Origin: Candidatus Rokuibacteriota bacterium
GTDB taxonomy: Bacteria; Methylomirabilota; Methylomirabilia; Rokubacteriales; CSP1-6
Direction: 5' to 3'
Assembly (NCBI GenBank): GCA_030647435.1
Contig: JAUSJX010000130.1
Span: 1 to 48,912, forward strand
DNA length: 48,912 bases
A program made the position numbers and the translations under genes. How positions within the stretch are numbered: the stretch's first letter is position 1; the number at the start of each line of letters is the position of its first letter. Below are positions 34,241 through 40,870 of the stretch, one piece after another. The notes under the pieces are model-generated. The model had not been told where the DNA came from. It saw only the letters and a list, made by a program, of their open reading frames with translations, and did no database searches.

Positions 34241-35164
34241 CTACGCCGGCGTGCCGTTCACGTAGGGCTTCAGGGCGGTGCAAATGAACGTGTTCGCCGG
34301 TGTCGGGATGCCGTATTGTCGGCCGAGCGCCACCACCTTGCCAGACAGCCAGGGCAACTCGAGACGGTTGCCCCGAATCAGGTCGACCGCCATCGAGGCG
34401 ATGTGATCCGGTGGCAGGGATCGCACGAAAGCGAGCTGTGTCTCGACGATATCGGGCGGGAAGCGCACGCCGCTGGCCCGGCCAACGGCGGTGACCTCAC
34501 GCATCGTCGCCTCGTACATCCCGAACAGGTCGGGATCGTCGCGCAGCTTGCCGATCGGCAGACGGGTGAGCGCGGTGACGGCGCTGTGTGCCACCAGCAG
34601 GTTGAACTTCTCCCATATCGCGCGCTCGATATCCTCGCTCAGCAGCCCCTCGAAGCCAGCCGCCCGACACAGGTCGTGAATGCGCTGGCCACGCGCGCTG
34701 CCGCGACCATCGAGCTCGCCAAAGGTCATGCGCTGGAATCTGCCGGTCTGGTGGACCACGCCGGGCGAAACGATCGCGCCGGTGACCAGGGCCGTCCCGC
34801 CCATCACCGCATCCCGCCCGAGGATCGGGATCAGCCGCTCAACGGCGTCGATGCCGTTTTGCAACGGGATGACCGCGGTGTTCGGCCCGACAATGGAGTG
34901 GATCCGCTCCCCGACAGTTTCGACATCCCATAGCTTCACGCAGAACAGCACCAGGTCCACGATGCCGATGCTGGCGGGATCGTCGGTGGCCTGGACGGGG
35001 TGGATATGGGTCTCGCCCCGATCGCCCTCGATGCGTAGCCCGTTCTGCTGCATGGCAACGAGATGCGCGCCGCGCGCGAGGAACGTGACATCCTCGCCCG
35101 CCTTCGCGAGCGCCGCGCCGAATGGACCGCCGATGCCGCCCGCGCCGATAACCGCGATCTTCAT
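34241..35164 (-). CDS. 2-dehydropantoate 2-reductase-family protein (first paralog)
   Basis: The 307-residue ketopantoate-reductase-fold enzyme reduces a 2-oxo acid with NADPH. MKIAVIGAGGIGGPFGAALA is the nucleotide-binding site. DLVLFCVKLWDVE carries the lysine region, VIPLQNGID the substrate asparagine, and ERAIWEKFNLLVAHSAVTAL the C-terminal helical domain with the catalytic lysine. A paralog lies directly upstream (9-bp gap). With an FAD monooxygenase heading the operon and no pantothenate genes, a catabolic 2-oxo-acid reductase is as likely as PanE. Confidence 0.87.
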   Translation of the reverse strand: MKIAVIGAGGIGGPFGAALAKAGEDVTFLARGAHLVAMQQNGLRIEGDRGETHIHPVQATDDPASIGIVDLVLFCVKLWDVETVGERIHSIVGPNTAVIPLQNGIDAVERLIPILGRDAVMGGTALVTGAIVSPGVVHQTGRFQRMTFGELDGRGSARGQRIHDLCRAAGFEGLLSEDIERAIWEKFNLLVAHSAVTALTRLPIGKLRDDPDLFGMYEATMREVTAVGRASGVRFPPDIVETQLAFVRSLPPDHIASMAVDLIRGNRLELPWLSGKVVALGRQYGIPTPANTFICTALKPYVNGTPA

Positions 35165-35173
35165 GTCGGGGAC

Positions 35174-36034
35174 CTATCGCCGCGCGCCGGCACGGAGCTT
35201 GAGGGCGGCGTAGATGAACCGGTTGACGGGCGTGGGCACTCCGAAGGCTTCGCCGAGCCGGACGACGGTCCCGTGCATGGCCTCCAGCTCCAACGGCTTG
35301 CCCTGCAGCTGGTCCGGCGCGCCGTCCGGCAAGACCACGCCCGACTTACCGGCCACTGCCTCCACTTCCCTCATGCACCCCATGTACAGTGCCCTGGTAT
35401 CGGGGTCCTCCCGGGTCGGTCCAAAGCCACGCCCGGTGACCGACTGAACACCCATGGTGCCTATCGCCCCCATGAACTTCATCCAGATCGCCACGCGGAT
35501 GTCGGCGGGACGCTCGGCGGCGATTCCCGCGCCGCGCAACACCAAGAGAGCGGTCTTCGCTGCTTCTTCGTCGGCATCGCGGAGGGGTCCTAGTACCAGC
35601 GGCTTCTCCGTTCCGCCCTGACGCACCACGCCCCGCTCGGGCATCGAGGCCGGAAGGTACGTGAGGCCTCCAAGAATGTGTGTGGGGTCCGTGGCCGCTC
35701 CCAGCCGTGCGGCGCTATCTACACCGTTCTGGAGCGGAACGACGATCGTCTCGGGGCCCTTGAGCACCCGCAACGCCTCGATCGCGCCCTCCAGGTCGTA
35801 CGTCTTCGTCGTAACGAGAACCAGTTCTACCAGGCCGACTTCCTCCGCGTCCGCCGTCGCCTGTACCTCAGGCACGGTGAATGTCTGGTCATCCCGAACG
35901 ACCGTCAGCCCTCGCGTGCGCAACGCCTGAAGTGTCTCGCCGCGCGCGATGAAATGCACGGCTTCTCCGGCGCGCGCCAGCTTGGCGCCATAGTAGCCTC
36001 CGAGCGCCCCGGCCCCGATGATCGCGATCTTCAT
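35174..36034 (-). CDS. 2-dehydropantoate 2-reductase-family protein (second paralog)
   Basis: A 286-residue paralog of the previous gene: MKIAIIGAGALGGYYGAKLA, LVELVLVTTKTYDLE, IVVPLQNGVDSAARLG, ADIRVAIWMKFMGAIGTMG, VTGRGFGPTREDPDTR. The two share fold and motifs but clearly differ, so the duplication is old or the genes were acquired separately. ATG 36034 is preferred (AAGGA 10 nt upstream); an ATG at 36058 would overlap the upstream gene and adds eight unrelated residues. Confidence 0.87.
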   Translation of the reverse strand: MKIAIIGAGALGGYYGAKLARAGEAVHFIARGETLQALRTRGLTVVRDDQTFTVPEVQATADAEEVGLVELVLVTTKTYDLEGAIEALRVLKGPETIVVPLQNGVDSAARLGAATDPTHILGGLTYLPASMPERGVVRQGGTEKPLVLGPLRDADEEAAKTALLVLRGAGIAAERPADIRVAIWMKFMGAIGTMGVQSVTGRGFGPTREDPDTRALYMGCMREVEAVAGKSGVVLPDGAPDQLQGKPLELEAMHGTVVRLGEAFGVPTPVNRFIYAALKLRAGARR

Positions 36035-36047
36035 AGGTCGGCGTCCT

Positions 36048-37424
36048 TCAGAGCCCACGTCTCACCGCGTCTCCCTTCTCAGCCATCACGGCCAGCACTC
36101 GCTCCACGAGCTCGGGATCCCGATAGACGCTGCGCGGCCTGAGGAGGTGGGCGACCTCGTACACCAGCTTGTGGACGATCGGATCCCGGGCCGCGAGCCG
36201 GGTCAGGGCGAGCCCGAACTTGTGGCTCCTGTTGAAATCCGGTGGACGTCGCCCGCGAGTCTCCGGATGAACGAAGTCCGGGACGGCCGCCCCCGCCCAC
36301 GGCGTGTCGATCAGGGGCTGCGCCTCGGAGAAGAAGGCGGGCGCCAGCCCAGCGAGCGGATCGGGCTCCGCGGCCCGCCCCTCGAGGAGACGATGGAGAA
36401 GGCACGCCTCCTGGACAGCCACCGTCATGCCCTGGCCGTACACCGGATTGAAGCGGCAGATCGCGTCACCAAAGGGAAGCAATCCCCGCGGGAAGGTGTC
36501 GAGCCGGTCGAAATGCCGCCAGACGCTCGCCGAGAAGCCGAAGCGAGCGACCTCCTCCAGACGCTTGGCGTGCTTGATCGCGTTGTAGACCGTCGGGGTC
36601 CACAGTGCCCGAGCACATGTCAGGAGCCCATCCTCGTCCCCGGGCGGCCGGTCGCCGTGCCGGCCGGCGACGGTCGTGATCCAGCGGCGGCCCTCCAACG
36701 GCAGCACGACGGCCCAACGGCAGTTCCGGGACCCCTCGGGAAACGTGAACACGCCCTTCCAATCAGGCGGAGCGTCCTCCGGAATGGCGAAGACAGCAGT
36801 GGCATAGCCGATGTCGACACCGATGGTCGTCTCCTCCGGCAGGGCTCGGCCGATGGATTCGAGCACGGCGAGGGTGAGGGTGCCGCGTCCGGAGGCGTCG
36901 ACGACGAGATCCGCGGGGAGTGTCTCGGTCCTGCCGCCAACGGTCTCGTATCGCACCGCCTTGATCGAAACCCCGTCCGGCGTCGCCACGATGCCTTGGA
37001 CCCGGCAGCGCTGACGCAGCGCGATGTTGGCGTGTCGCTGCACCCGCTGTCGCACGATGAGCTCGATCAGCGGGCGGGACATGGAGTACCAGAGCCAGCC
37101 GAAGTCACGCTGGGGAAAGGGACCGTAGCCCGGGCGTTCGGTACGCACGTCGGCGTCCGCCCGGAGCGGTACCGCTCCAGCCCGGACGAGGTCCTGCTCG
37201 AAGTCTGGAAACAATTCACTCAGCGCGCGCTGGCCGCCGCCCAGGAGCACGTGCAGGTGCCTGGCCTGTGGTGTCCCTGCCCGGTGAACGGCATCCAGCG
37301 GCAGGGTGTCCCGCTCCATCACGATCACGCGCTCGAAGTGATCGGCGAGCGCGCGGGCGGCTGTCAACCCGGCCATCCCAGCTCCGACCACGACGGCCTG
37401 CTTCCCGATGGTAGCGGGCACCAT
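36048..37424 (-). CDS. FAD-dependent monooxygenase/oxidoreductase
   Basis: The 458-residue flavoprotein has QAVVVGAGMAGLTAARALA (dinucleotide fold), an acidic strand end at RVIVMERD, DLVVDASGRGT and the second FAD motif LLPFGDAICRFNPVYGQGM. It resembles FAD-binding monooxygenases of aromatic or polyketide hydroxylation. The C-terminal 80 residues (HLLRPRSVYRDPELVERVLA) recall tetracycline- or halogenase-like relatives. ATG 37424 follows GGAGG; ATG 37448 is the alternative. It heads a minus-strand operon with the two reductases and is divergent from the BTAD regulator, its likely controller. Confidence 0.85.
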   Translation of the reverse strand: MVPATIGKQAVVVGAGMAGLTAARALADHFERVIVMERDTLPLDAVHRAGTPQARHLHVLLGGGQRALSELFPDFEQDLVRAGAVPLRADADVRTERPGYGPFPQRDFGWLWYSMSRPLIELIVRQRVQRHANIALRQRCRVQGIVATPDGVSIKAVRYETVGGRTETLPADLVVDASGRGTLTLAVLESIGRALPEETTIGVDIGYATAVFAIPEDAPPDWKGVFTFPEGSRNCRWAVVLPLEGRRWITTVAGRHGDRPPGDEDGLLTCARALWTPTVYNAIKHAKRLEEVARFGFSASVWRHFDRLDTFPRGLLPFGDAICRFNPVYGQGMTVAVQEACLLHRLLEGRAAEPDPLAGLAPAFFSEAQPLIDTPWAGAAVPDFVHPETRGRRPPDFNRSHKFGLALTRLAARDPIVHKLVYEVAHLLRPRSVYRDPELVERVLAVMAEKGDAVRRGL

Positions 37425-37510
37425 GAGCACCTCCGCAATGCCGTCCATACCGCCGGCGGCACCGCCGCTGGCCCAACGTTCAATCGCACGTGAAGTGCCA
37501 GAGCAAGAGC

Positions 37511-37524
37511 TTCAGGGTTCAGGG
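37511..37524. promoter_or_regulatory. Tandem heptamer TTCAGGG x2, candidate activator site
   Basis: Two adjacent TTCAGGG heptamers lie in the 203-bp gap between the FAD monooxygenase and the divergent BTAD-type regulator. SARP/BTAD activators typically bind direct heptamer repeats, though usually with about 4-bp spacers, so the match is suggestive only. TAGAGT at 37603-37608 could be the regulator's -10. Nothing else is recognised in the gap. Confidence 0.3.
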
Positions 37525-37627
37525 CATCAGCATAGTCCGCAAGCCGTTACGGAACCGTCTGCGGTCGCGTTAGCAGCTAAAGAGGTCGCCCGACGTTCGT
37601 GCTAGAGTCCGTCCAGCATCACTCACC

Positions 37628-40600
37628 ATGAGCCGACTAGCGCTGACGCTTCTCGGGGGATTTTAGGTCCAGGCGGGCACCGCCCGGCCGCTCACCGTCC
37701 CGACCAAGAAGGCGCAGGCCCTCCTGGCCTATCTCGCCCTCACCCCGGGCCAGACTCAGCCCCGGGATAAGCTGACCGCCCTCCTCTGGGCCGACGTTCC
37801 CCACGGGTCGGCCCGCAACGCGCTCCGTCAGACGCTCTTTGTCCTTCGTAAAGCGCTGGGCCCTGCCCAGGACACCACGCTCCTCGTGGGAGGCGGCGGG
37901 ATCACGCTGCCGGTGGACGCGGTGCAGACCGACGTGGCGGCGTTCGAGCAGGCGGTGGCCGACGGCACGCCCGTCGCGCTCGAAGCGGCGGTCGGCCTCT
38001 ACAGGGGCGATCTGCTGGCGGGGCTCACGGTCGTCGCGCCGACCTTCGAGGACTGGCTCATGAGCGAGCGCGAGCGGCTGCGTGAGCGTGCTGTCGAAGC
38101 TCACGCGCGGCTGCTCGCCCACCAGCGGGCCGTCGGGGCGACCGCCTCCGCCGTGCAGTCGGCGCTCCGGCTGCTGGCCCTGGACCCTCTTCAGGAAGCC
38201 GTGCACCGCACGCTCATGCGCCTGCATGCCCAGCTCGGGCGGCGCGACGCTGCGCTCCGCCAGTACCAGGAATGCGTCGACGTCCTTCGGCGTGAGCTGG
38301 CCGTCGAGCCGGAGGCAGACACCAAGGAGCTGTACCAGGAGATCCTCCGGCAACGCCCCCTACGGGCGGCAACCACGCCGAGCGTGACCGGGCCCGCCGA
38401 GGCGCCCCTGGTCGGGCGGGACGGCGAGGTCACGCAGTTACACGAGGCGCTGGCGGAGGCCTGGGCGGGACAAGGCCGCGTCCTCGCCGTCCTCGGCGAG
38501 GCTGGGATCGGCAAGAGCCGGTTGCTGGCCGAGCTTGCCGCCGAGGCCGGACGCCGTGGCGGAGCGATCCTGCTCGGGCGCGCCTACGAGACGGAGCAGA
38601 TCTTGCCGTTCGGGCCCTGGGTCAGTGCCCTGCGGGACGCCGGCGTCGTGACCGACTCGCACGTGCTGGAGGGTGTAGGGAGCGAATGGCGGGCGGAGCT
38701 CGCACGCCTATTCCCAGAGCTGGCCGATCCTGGCCGGTCGGTAGCGTCCAACCCGGGGGACCAGATGCGCTTGTTCGAGGCTTTGGCCCAGTTGCTCCGG
38801 CGCCTGGCCGTCGCGCAGCCCCTCCTCGTCCTGCTGGAGGACGGCCACTGGGCGGACGACATGACACTCCGCTTCCTGGCGTTTCTCGGGCGCCGGCTCC
38901 ATTCCGCGCCCATCCTGCTGGCCCTGAGCATTCGGGACGAGGAACTGCCCGACCACCCGCTCCTGCGCCGTACCCTCGACGAGTTGGACGCCGACCGCCG
39001 GCTGGTCTGCGTGTCGCTGGGGCGCCTGGAACGCGAGCCCACGACGACGCTCGTGCGCCTGCTCGGACGCGCGGACAGCCACGCGACGGCGCTGGCGCAG
39101 CGGGGCGAGCAGGTCTGGAGGGCCAGCGGCGGCAACCCGTTCATCGTCGTCGAGACCATGCGCGCGATCGGGTGTGGTGGTGTCGCCCTGGAACCTTCAG
39201 ACAGCCTTCCGCTCCCGACGAACGTGCGGGACATGATCGCCCGGCGCCTGGAGCGGCTGAGCGAGCAGGCCCGACAGCTCCTGCGCGTGGCCGCAGTCAT
39301 CGGGCGCGAGTTCGAGTTCACGCTGCTCCAGCGCGCGGCGGGAGTGGACGAGCCAGCGGCCGCCGAGGGGCTGGAGGAGCTCGTCCGCCGGCGCGTCGTC
39401 CACGGCGTCGGAGACCGTTTCGATTTCACCCACGAGCGAATTCGGGACGTGGTCGCCGCCGAGCTCCTCCCACCCCGGCGGCAGTGGCTGCACGCACGAG
39501 TCCTCGATGCGATCGAAACCCTCTATCAGGGAAGGCTCGGTGAGCACGTCGAGCGGCTCGCTCAGCACGCCGTCCGGGCCGAGCAACGGGATAAGGCCGT
39601 GCACTATCTGCGGCAGGCTGGGCTCCAGGCGACCGCGCGGTCGGCGCTTGAAGCCGCACGGGTCTGGTTCGAGCAGGCGCTGACCCTTCTCGGAGCGCTC
39701 CCGGAGAGTGAGCCGGCGCTGGAGGAGTCCTTCGAGATCCGACTCGAGTTGTGGCCGGTGCTGAGCGTGTTCGGCGAAGTCCGGCCGGCGTTGGAGCGCC
39801 TGCACGAAGCCGAGGCGCTCGCCGAACGGTTGAATGATGAGCGCCGGCGGGGGCGTGTCTGTGCGTTCATCGCGAGCGGCCACTCGTTGCTCGGCGAGCT
39901 GGGCGAGGCTCTAGCCTTCGGCGCTCGCGCACTGGCGATCGCACGAGAGCTGGGGGCCCTTCGGCTCCGAATCCTCGCCACCAGCTATCTGGAGCAAGCA
40001 CACTACTTCCGCGGTGAGTACGAGCGGGTGGTAGAGTTGGCCACCGACAACCTCGCGGCGTTGCCCGCCGACTGGGTCCACGAGAGTTTCGGACTCCCCG
40101 GACCGGCATCAGTGCTGGATCGAATCTGGCTCGTCATGAGCCTCGCCCAGCTCGGCCGGTTCGCCGAAGCGGCCGAGCATGAAGGCGAAGCCCTTCGCCT
40201 CGCCGAGCCGACGCGCCACGGATACACCGTCGGCTGGGCTCACCTCGGCGCGGGCATGCTCCACACCCTCAAGGGCGACTGGTTGACGGCACGCTCGCTG
40301 ATCGAGCATGGGATCGCACTCCTCCGGGCGGGCAACGTCGCCATCCTGCTTCCGTTCACGGCCGCCTTGTCCGCTCGGGTCCTCGCGCAGCTCGGTGAGC
40401 GGCGTGACGCGTTGGACCGGCTCCAGGAGGCCGAGCAGCTTCTCGAGCGCCAGACGGCGAGCGGGATCGTCGTCGGTCGCAACGCAGCCTCCTACATGCT
40501 CGGTCACGCCTGTCTCCTGCTCGACCGGCTCGACGAGGCGCGGAGCCTCGGCGAGCGCGCGGTGGAATCTCCGAGTCATCCCTACACGACCCATGCGCGG

Positions 40601-40870
40601 CACCTGCTCGGCGACATCGCGGCCCATCCTGACCGCTTTGATGCCGAGCGCAGCGAGGCCCACTACCGCGAGGCGCTCGCGCTCGCCGAGCGGCGCTCCC
40701 TGCGTCCGCTCGTCGCCCACTGCCACCTCGGCCTCGGCAGGCTCTACCGACGGACAGGCAAGCGCGAGCAGGCCCAGGAGCACCTCGACACCGCGACCAC
40801 GCTGTACCGTGAAATGGACATGCGCTTCTGGCTGGAGCATGCGGAGTCGGAGGTGAAGCAACGCGCTTAA
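37628..40870 (+). pseudogene. BTAD/AAA-ATPase/TPR transcriptional regulator interrupted by an amber codon
   Basis: From ATG 37628 the frame encodes MSRLALTLLGGF, then TAG (37664-37666), then continues VQAGTARPLTVPTKKAQALL without another stop to 40870 (1,080 codons). The sequence around the stop is the normal start of SARP/BTAD regulators (LLGGFQV), so one C-to-T change (CAG to TAG) explains it. Later domains are intact: winged helix (to about 95), BTAD (100-245), P-loop GEAGIGKSR (K about 296), Walker B LLVLLEDGHWADD and TPR-like helices (600-1075). No usable ATG, GTG or TTG follows the stop until 37886, which would remove the DNA-binding domain. Either recently inactivated, read through, or a sequence error. 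Confidence 0.8.

Follow-up and report, generated by a model that had tools for sequence, protein, structure and literature searches.

The gene of a large transcriptional regulator is broken, twelve codons after its start, by a single amber codon, which raises the question of whether the gene has really been lost, whether the stop is an artefact of the assembly, or whether the cell reads past it. The window, i.e., the whole stretch of 48,912 nucleotides that was analyzed, is contig C130 of a genome of 5.79 Mb in 176 contigs (98.48% complete, 2.07% contamination). The reading frame begins with ATG at 37628–37630, continues through 11 more sense codons to TAG at 37664–37666, stays open for another 1,067 codons and ends with TAA at 40868–40870; with the TAG read through, the product has 1,080 aa (Table 1). 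The earliest in-frame ATG, GTG or TTG past the TAG is the GTG of codon 87 at 37886. The interruption is probably genuine, a nonsense allele that arose very recently in one member of a large and redundant family of SARP and cyclase-AAA-TPR regulators. This reading is favored by the undecayed state of the gene, the retention of its start and motifs, the lack of a tRNA that reads TAG and the stops in other family members, and it depends on one base in one assembly. Among 30 named loci encoding the same protein, 29 belong to Candidatus Rokubacteria or Rokuibacteriota and one to a Burkholderiales assembly, which points to a Rokubacteria-like host.

Table 1. Features of the regulator locus and the divergent operon (window positions).
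Feature	Position	Strand	Basis
FAD-dependent monooxygenase-like gene, divergent, open throughout, 466 aa	36048..37448	-	Pfam FAD_binding_3, E 3.6e-11
Upstream element CGTTNNNGNWCCGT at -83, common to 4/20 homologues	37545..37561	+	Pattern derived from the same sequences (post hoc)
Extended -10-like motif TGCTAGAGT, 28 bases 5' of ATG, common to homologues	37600..37608	+	TGNTA count
Large SARP-like regulator gene, 1,080 codons + TAA, broken at codon 13	37628..40870	+	Reading frame; full-length homologues
In-frame TAG, codon 13, variable site (homologues mostly Gln or Glu)	37664..37666	+	Frame; alignment
Winged-helix DNA-binding domain (Trans_reg_C), residues 26-81, 3' of TAG	37703..37870	+	Pfam PF00486, E 7.5e-5, 23.2 bits, below cut-off 26.2
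ORF from GTG codon 87, 994 aa, without winged helix	37886..40870	+	First usual start codon past TAG
BTAD domain, residues 107-240	37946..38347	+	Pfam PF03704, E 6.5e-27, 95.1 bits, cut-off 22.1
AAA_16 ATPase domain, residues 260-431	38405..38920	+	Pfam PF13191, E 2.5e-26, above cut-off
C-terminal TPR region, residues ~754-1062	39887..40813	+	Pfam TPR_12 above cut-off; TPR_MalT below

Large SARPs are regulators of the AfsR type, i.e., Streptomyces antibiotic regulatory proteins with additional AAA and TPR parts, and SARPs activate their target promoters via direct repeats near the -35 region. The order of winged helix, BTAD, AAA ATPase and TPR domains in the window protein is that of the large SARP regulators. 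The BTAD domain of the SARP type is found well above its cut-off, and both the AAA ATPase (PF13191) and TPR_12 matches C-terminal to it exceed theirs, as in a large SARP. Differences from the AfsR type lie in the Rokubacteria-like host, in a winged-helix match slightly under the Pfam cut-off and in the stop at codon 13. The regulator also resembles the guanylate-cyclase/AAA/TPR proteins of the same genomes; its AAA-TPR part shares up to 54% identity with that of a paralogue in its own genome (C48). In the sole cyclase-type protein scanned (L003), however, the N-terminus consists of zinc-ribbon and Guanylate_cyc domains in contrast to the winged helix and BTAD of the regulator; the N-termini of the other proteins of this type were judged by eye.

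For the comparison at the TAG site, 20 homologues were aligned whose sequence extends to the N-terminus: 19 come from the 29 relatives' loci, the rest of which start past residue 220, and one comes from the 30 named loci. The three preceding residues are GGF in 18 homologues and GTF in two, and site 13 itself lies free of gaps and insertions in all 20, with a one-residue gap 6–12 residues downstream in four of them. The start is therefore correct, and so is the frame before and after the TAG, in agreement with an earlier, sequence-only reading of the locus; the event is a substitution rather than an indel. Site 13 is occupied by Gln in nine homologues, Glu in five, Arg in two and Leu, His, Asp and Ala in one each. 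The sequence-only reading had named Gln as the lost residue, which is not supported: Gln is the commonest residue, but the sister gene in G059 (L014; 56% identity, fork support 100/100) has Glu (GAG), as does L016, which shares the next residues VQAG. Judged from these sequences, the original codon would have been CAG or GAG, with Glu as likely as Gln. A conserved stop position, which would mark recoding, is ruled out, since site 13 is a sense codon in every one of the 20 homologues and the stops of interrupted relatives lie at other sites. The highest full-length protein identity among the loci retrieved is 57% (56% in the tree), so that the age of the allele is not measurable.

Past the TAG, no further decay was found: the frame contains no second stop, and conserved columns are kept. 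Of 191 columns with a conservation of at least 90% across the remaining rows, the window protein departs from the consensus at 8, which is the fifth lowest rate in a set of 21 rows spanning 2.1% to 17.7%, and the coding log-odds are positive in 12 of 12 blocks of 90 codons. The earlier description of a 1,080-codon regulator free of decay except for a single in-frame TAG, with more than 1,060 intact codons downstream, is thus supported, as are two of its options for the event, namely a very recent origin or a base error. Another stop would be expected with 95% probability only after about 107–112 random substitutions (3.3–3.4% per site); the lack of a second stop therefore implies that any unconstrained drift has been short. 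That TAG predominates requires no particular explanation because it accounts for 66–67% of the one-step stops expected from the regulator's codons. With a single internal stop in a gene that is otherwise intact, the regulator resembles bacterial nonsense pseudogenes and the assembly artefacts that imitate them (PMC11017572). It combines a premature in-frame stop with intact homologues and lacks decay beyond the stop, and it is therefore a very young pseudogene at most.

Read-through by a suppressor tRNA or by reassignment of TAG, which the earlier reading had also entertained, finds no support in the decoding apparatus. Forty-five tRNA genes were found with the Rfam model, and all were typed with ARAGORN; they cover all sense codons (by eye) and include none with a CUA anticodon, a gene unlikely to have been missed in a 98.48% complete genome. 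Release factor 1 (RF1) is present (534.3 bits; cut-off 423.25). Furthermore, TAG ends 63 of the 181 non-overlapping long genes (TGA 97, TAA 21) in a 397-kb sample, which comprises the window and 20 other stretches and is non-random, with C48 and C8 put in deliberately. Together, these results speak against genome-wide reading or reassignment of TAG. At the stop sites of three relatives the window protein has Glu (G001:C10), Gly (G019:C60) and Arg (G011:C42), so that no single residue is lost to these stops.

The regulator matches 16 places in its own genome, corresponding to 15 family genes, one of which is in two pieces. Two of the 14 other family genes carry one internal stop each. The cyclase-AAA-TPR paralogue on C48 (G000:C48:14197-16791; L002, L083) has a single internal TAG at a position occupied by Glu in two of three paralogues, and the paralogue on C8 (G000:C8:55711-58197; L006, L131) is interrupted once, by a TAA within its TPR part, after which the frame continues for 200 codons. 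A wider survey covered the 150 family matches listed from 99 genomes, including the window's own, with at most seven candidates scored in each. Seven stops were flagged among these listed matches, two of which are natural ends; the five kept are those of the window gene, C48, G019:C60, G011:C42 and G047:C86, the last being frameshifted and carrying the flagged TGA. A deeper search of seven genomes added G001:C10, and because these genomes were picked partly since G001, G011 and G019 had been flagged, no rate is drawn from it. The relatives with an internal TAG, all at sites other than 13, are thus G019:C60, G011:C42 and G001:C10. The candidates G001:C66, G042:C181 and G002:C113 were dropped as natural stops that end the match. 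A 313-codon open frame in G059 (L130, G059:C43:6060-6866) is 70% identical to residues 2–164 of the window protein and 54% identical to residues 210–318; from its sequence, it appears to be a family copy shortened by an internal deletion.

Several controls put these counts into perspective. In the own genome, no stop was found in 150 scored ABC_tran domains (of 260 candidates), which at about 145 codons each are shorter than the family genes and hence a weak control per gene. Among the ACR_tran matches listed, mostly of about 1,000 codons, 0 of 150 contain a stop in 60 genomes, only some of which also belong to the 99 of the family survey. The comparison of the matches listed gives 5/150 for the family vs. 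0/150 for ACR_tran (Fisher P 0.06), and 3/145 vs. 0/148 once the own-genome rows are removed (Fisher P 0.12). A family prone to losing copies is therefore suggested but not shown, as the excess of stops in relatives is not significant. In the 397-kb sample, a scan with an estimated sensitivity of 0.47 inside genes, which missed C8 and is blind to the window TAG with its 12 preceding codons, returned 11 stops with coding signal on both sides. Nine of these are read as gene junctions, as a start codon follows them within four codons; the others are C48 and L079:1643, and only C48 is a clear interruption.

The main rival to a nonsense allele is an error in the assembly consensus or base call, in which case the regulator would be intact in living cells. 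This we consider possible, though on the unlikely side. The absence of decay fits an error equally well, and one published study has ascribed many bacterial internal-stop pseudogenes to assembly error (PMC11017572). Conversely, stops are rare elsewhere in the assembly, as the stop-free ABC domains indicate, and C48 is the only clear interruption in 397 kb containing 181 long genes, at the limited sensitivity given above. In addition, two more family members of the same genome carry stops, and random error would hardly concentrate there.

Two further explanations would leave a functional product in spite of a real TAG. Low natural read-through, tolerated at a variable site and yielding some full-length regulator, would agree with the seven different residues at site 13 among the 20 homologues and with the preservation of both the -10-like motif and the coding sequence, but the missing suppressor tRNA, the presence of RF1, the common use of TAG as a terminal stop and the lack of any stop at site 13 in the homologues make it very improbable. 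It is also quite improbable that translation restarts at GTG 37886 to give a BTAD-AAA-TPR protein with a function of its own and no DNA-binding domain. Family relatives of the cyclase type do combine AAA-TPR parts with the lack of a winged helix; however, L003 has its zinc-ribbon and guanylate-cyclase domains in place of the latter, inspection by eye revealed no ribosome-binding site ahead of GTG 37886, and the winged-helix region of the window gene is undecayed. In a search of the relatives' loci for a naturally truncated, BTAD-first homologue, the one apparent case examined, G059:C281, turned out to begin at a contig end.

The TAG stands ahead of the DNA-binding domain. With the nonsense allele that we favor, translation would mostly terminate after 12 residues, and any restart at GTG 37886 would produce a protein that lacks the winged helix and should not bind DNA. 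The loss may be tolerated because about 15 family genes are present, two others of which also have an internal stop. The event itself is ordinary, and its significance lies chiefly in a caution for annotation: a gene caller would probably pick GTG 37886 as the start of the regulator and thereby lose the DNA-binding domain. Should the excess of single stops in the family be confirmed, these regulators would illustrate how frequently regulators are gained and lost in an uncultured phylum. It is conceivable, though a long shot, that AAA-TPR regulators of Rokubacteria are toggled in populations by single nonsense changes as a form of standing regulatory variation; promoter and frame would then be kept, and one reversion would restore the regulator. 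Judged by titles and the opening lines of abstracts, none of the papers listed dealt with this regulator family.

The divergent FAD gene is followed by two ketopantoate reductase-like genes on the same strand (PanE/ApbA, both domains above cut-off), and the three genes occupy 34241–37448 of the window. Clear homologues of the FAD gene were identified at four loci with 58–64% identity (G056, G047, G039, and G055), and the PanE/ApbA-like pair was not found in the stretches around them. The sequence-only reading proposed that, if the stop is real, this operon has probably lost its activator, a suggestion that comes from adjacency alone and finds no comparative support from synteny in either direction. 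Across the 29 other family loci, the FAD gene was not seen within flanks of up to 1.5 kb (19 loci start at the N-terminus, ten miss the gene start, and L016 offers just 85 bases upstream), and no divergent BTAD regulator is in view at the four FAD homologue loci, where the G055 contig ends about 1 kb upstream. The short G055 contig also carries a cyclase-type family member, located on the opposite side of the FAD homologue.

The region upstream of the regulator shares features with that of its homologues. Of 21 family members (window included), 15 have TGNTA in the 45 bases that precede the start, compared with 12 of the 181 long genes sampled (Fisher P 4e-11, or 2e-10 with the window left out), a P value that is flattered by the choice of the motif by eye and by homologue starts set by alignment. 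In these 15 large SARP-like genes it lies 18–31 bases from the start codon, a position that suggests short leaders. A scan of 37440 to 37700 with the sigma-70 consensus found no promoter. The element CGTTNNNGNWCCGT is present in 5 of the 21 family members at -70 to -97 and absent from the four FAD homologue loci; as a post hoc pattern, it occurs once in 793,766 strand-bases of the own genome, at the window site itself. Elsewhere, it lies once 3' of the L015 gene and, at positions where no promoter role is apparent, in L004, L030 and L037. When the element was lengthened by three bases, a whole-genome search gave six matches vs. four in the reversed control, and no regulon can therefore be named. 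An intergenic search for direct repeats returned one 11-base pair whose copies lie 117 bases apart, which is not operator-like. Repeats resembling GTCAAAAG are absent before the window regulator and visible before some homologues: upstream of L015, L017, L022 and L029 they form direct repeats about 10–12 bases apart, which, judged by their arrangement, might resemble an autoregulatory operator.
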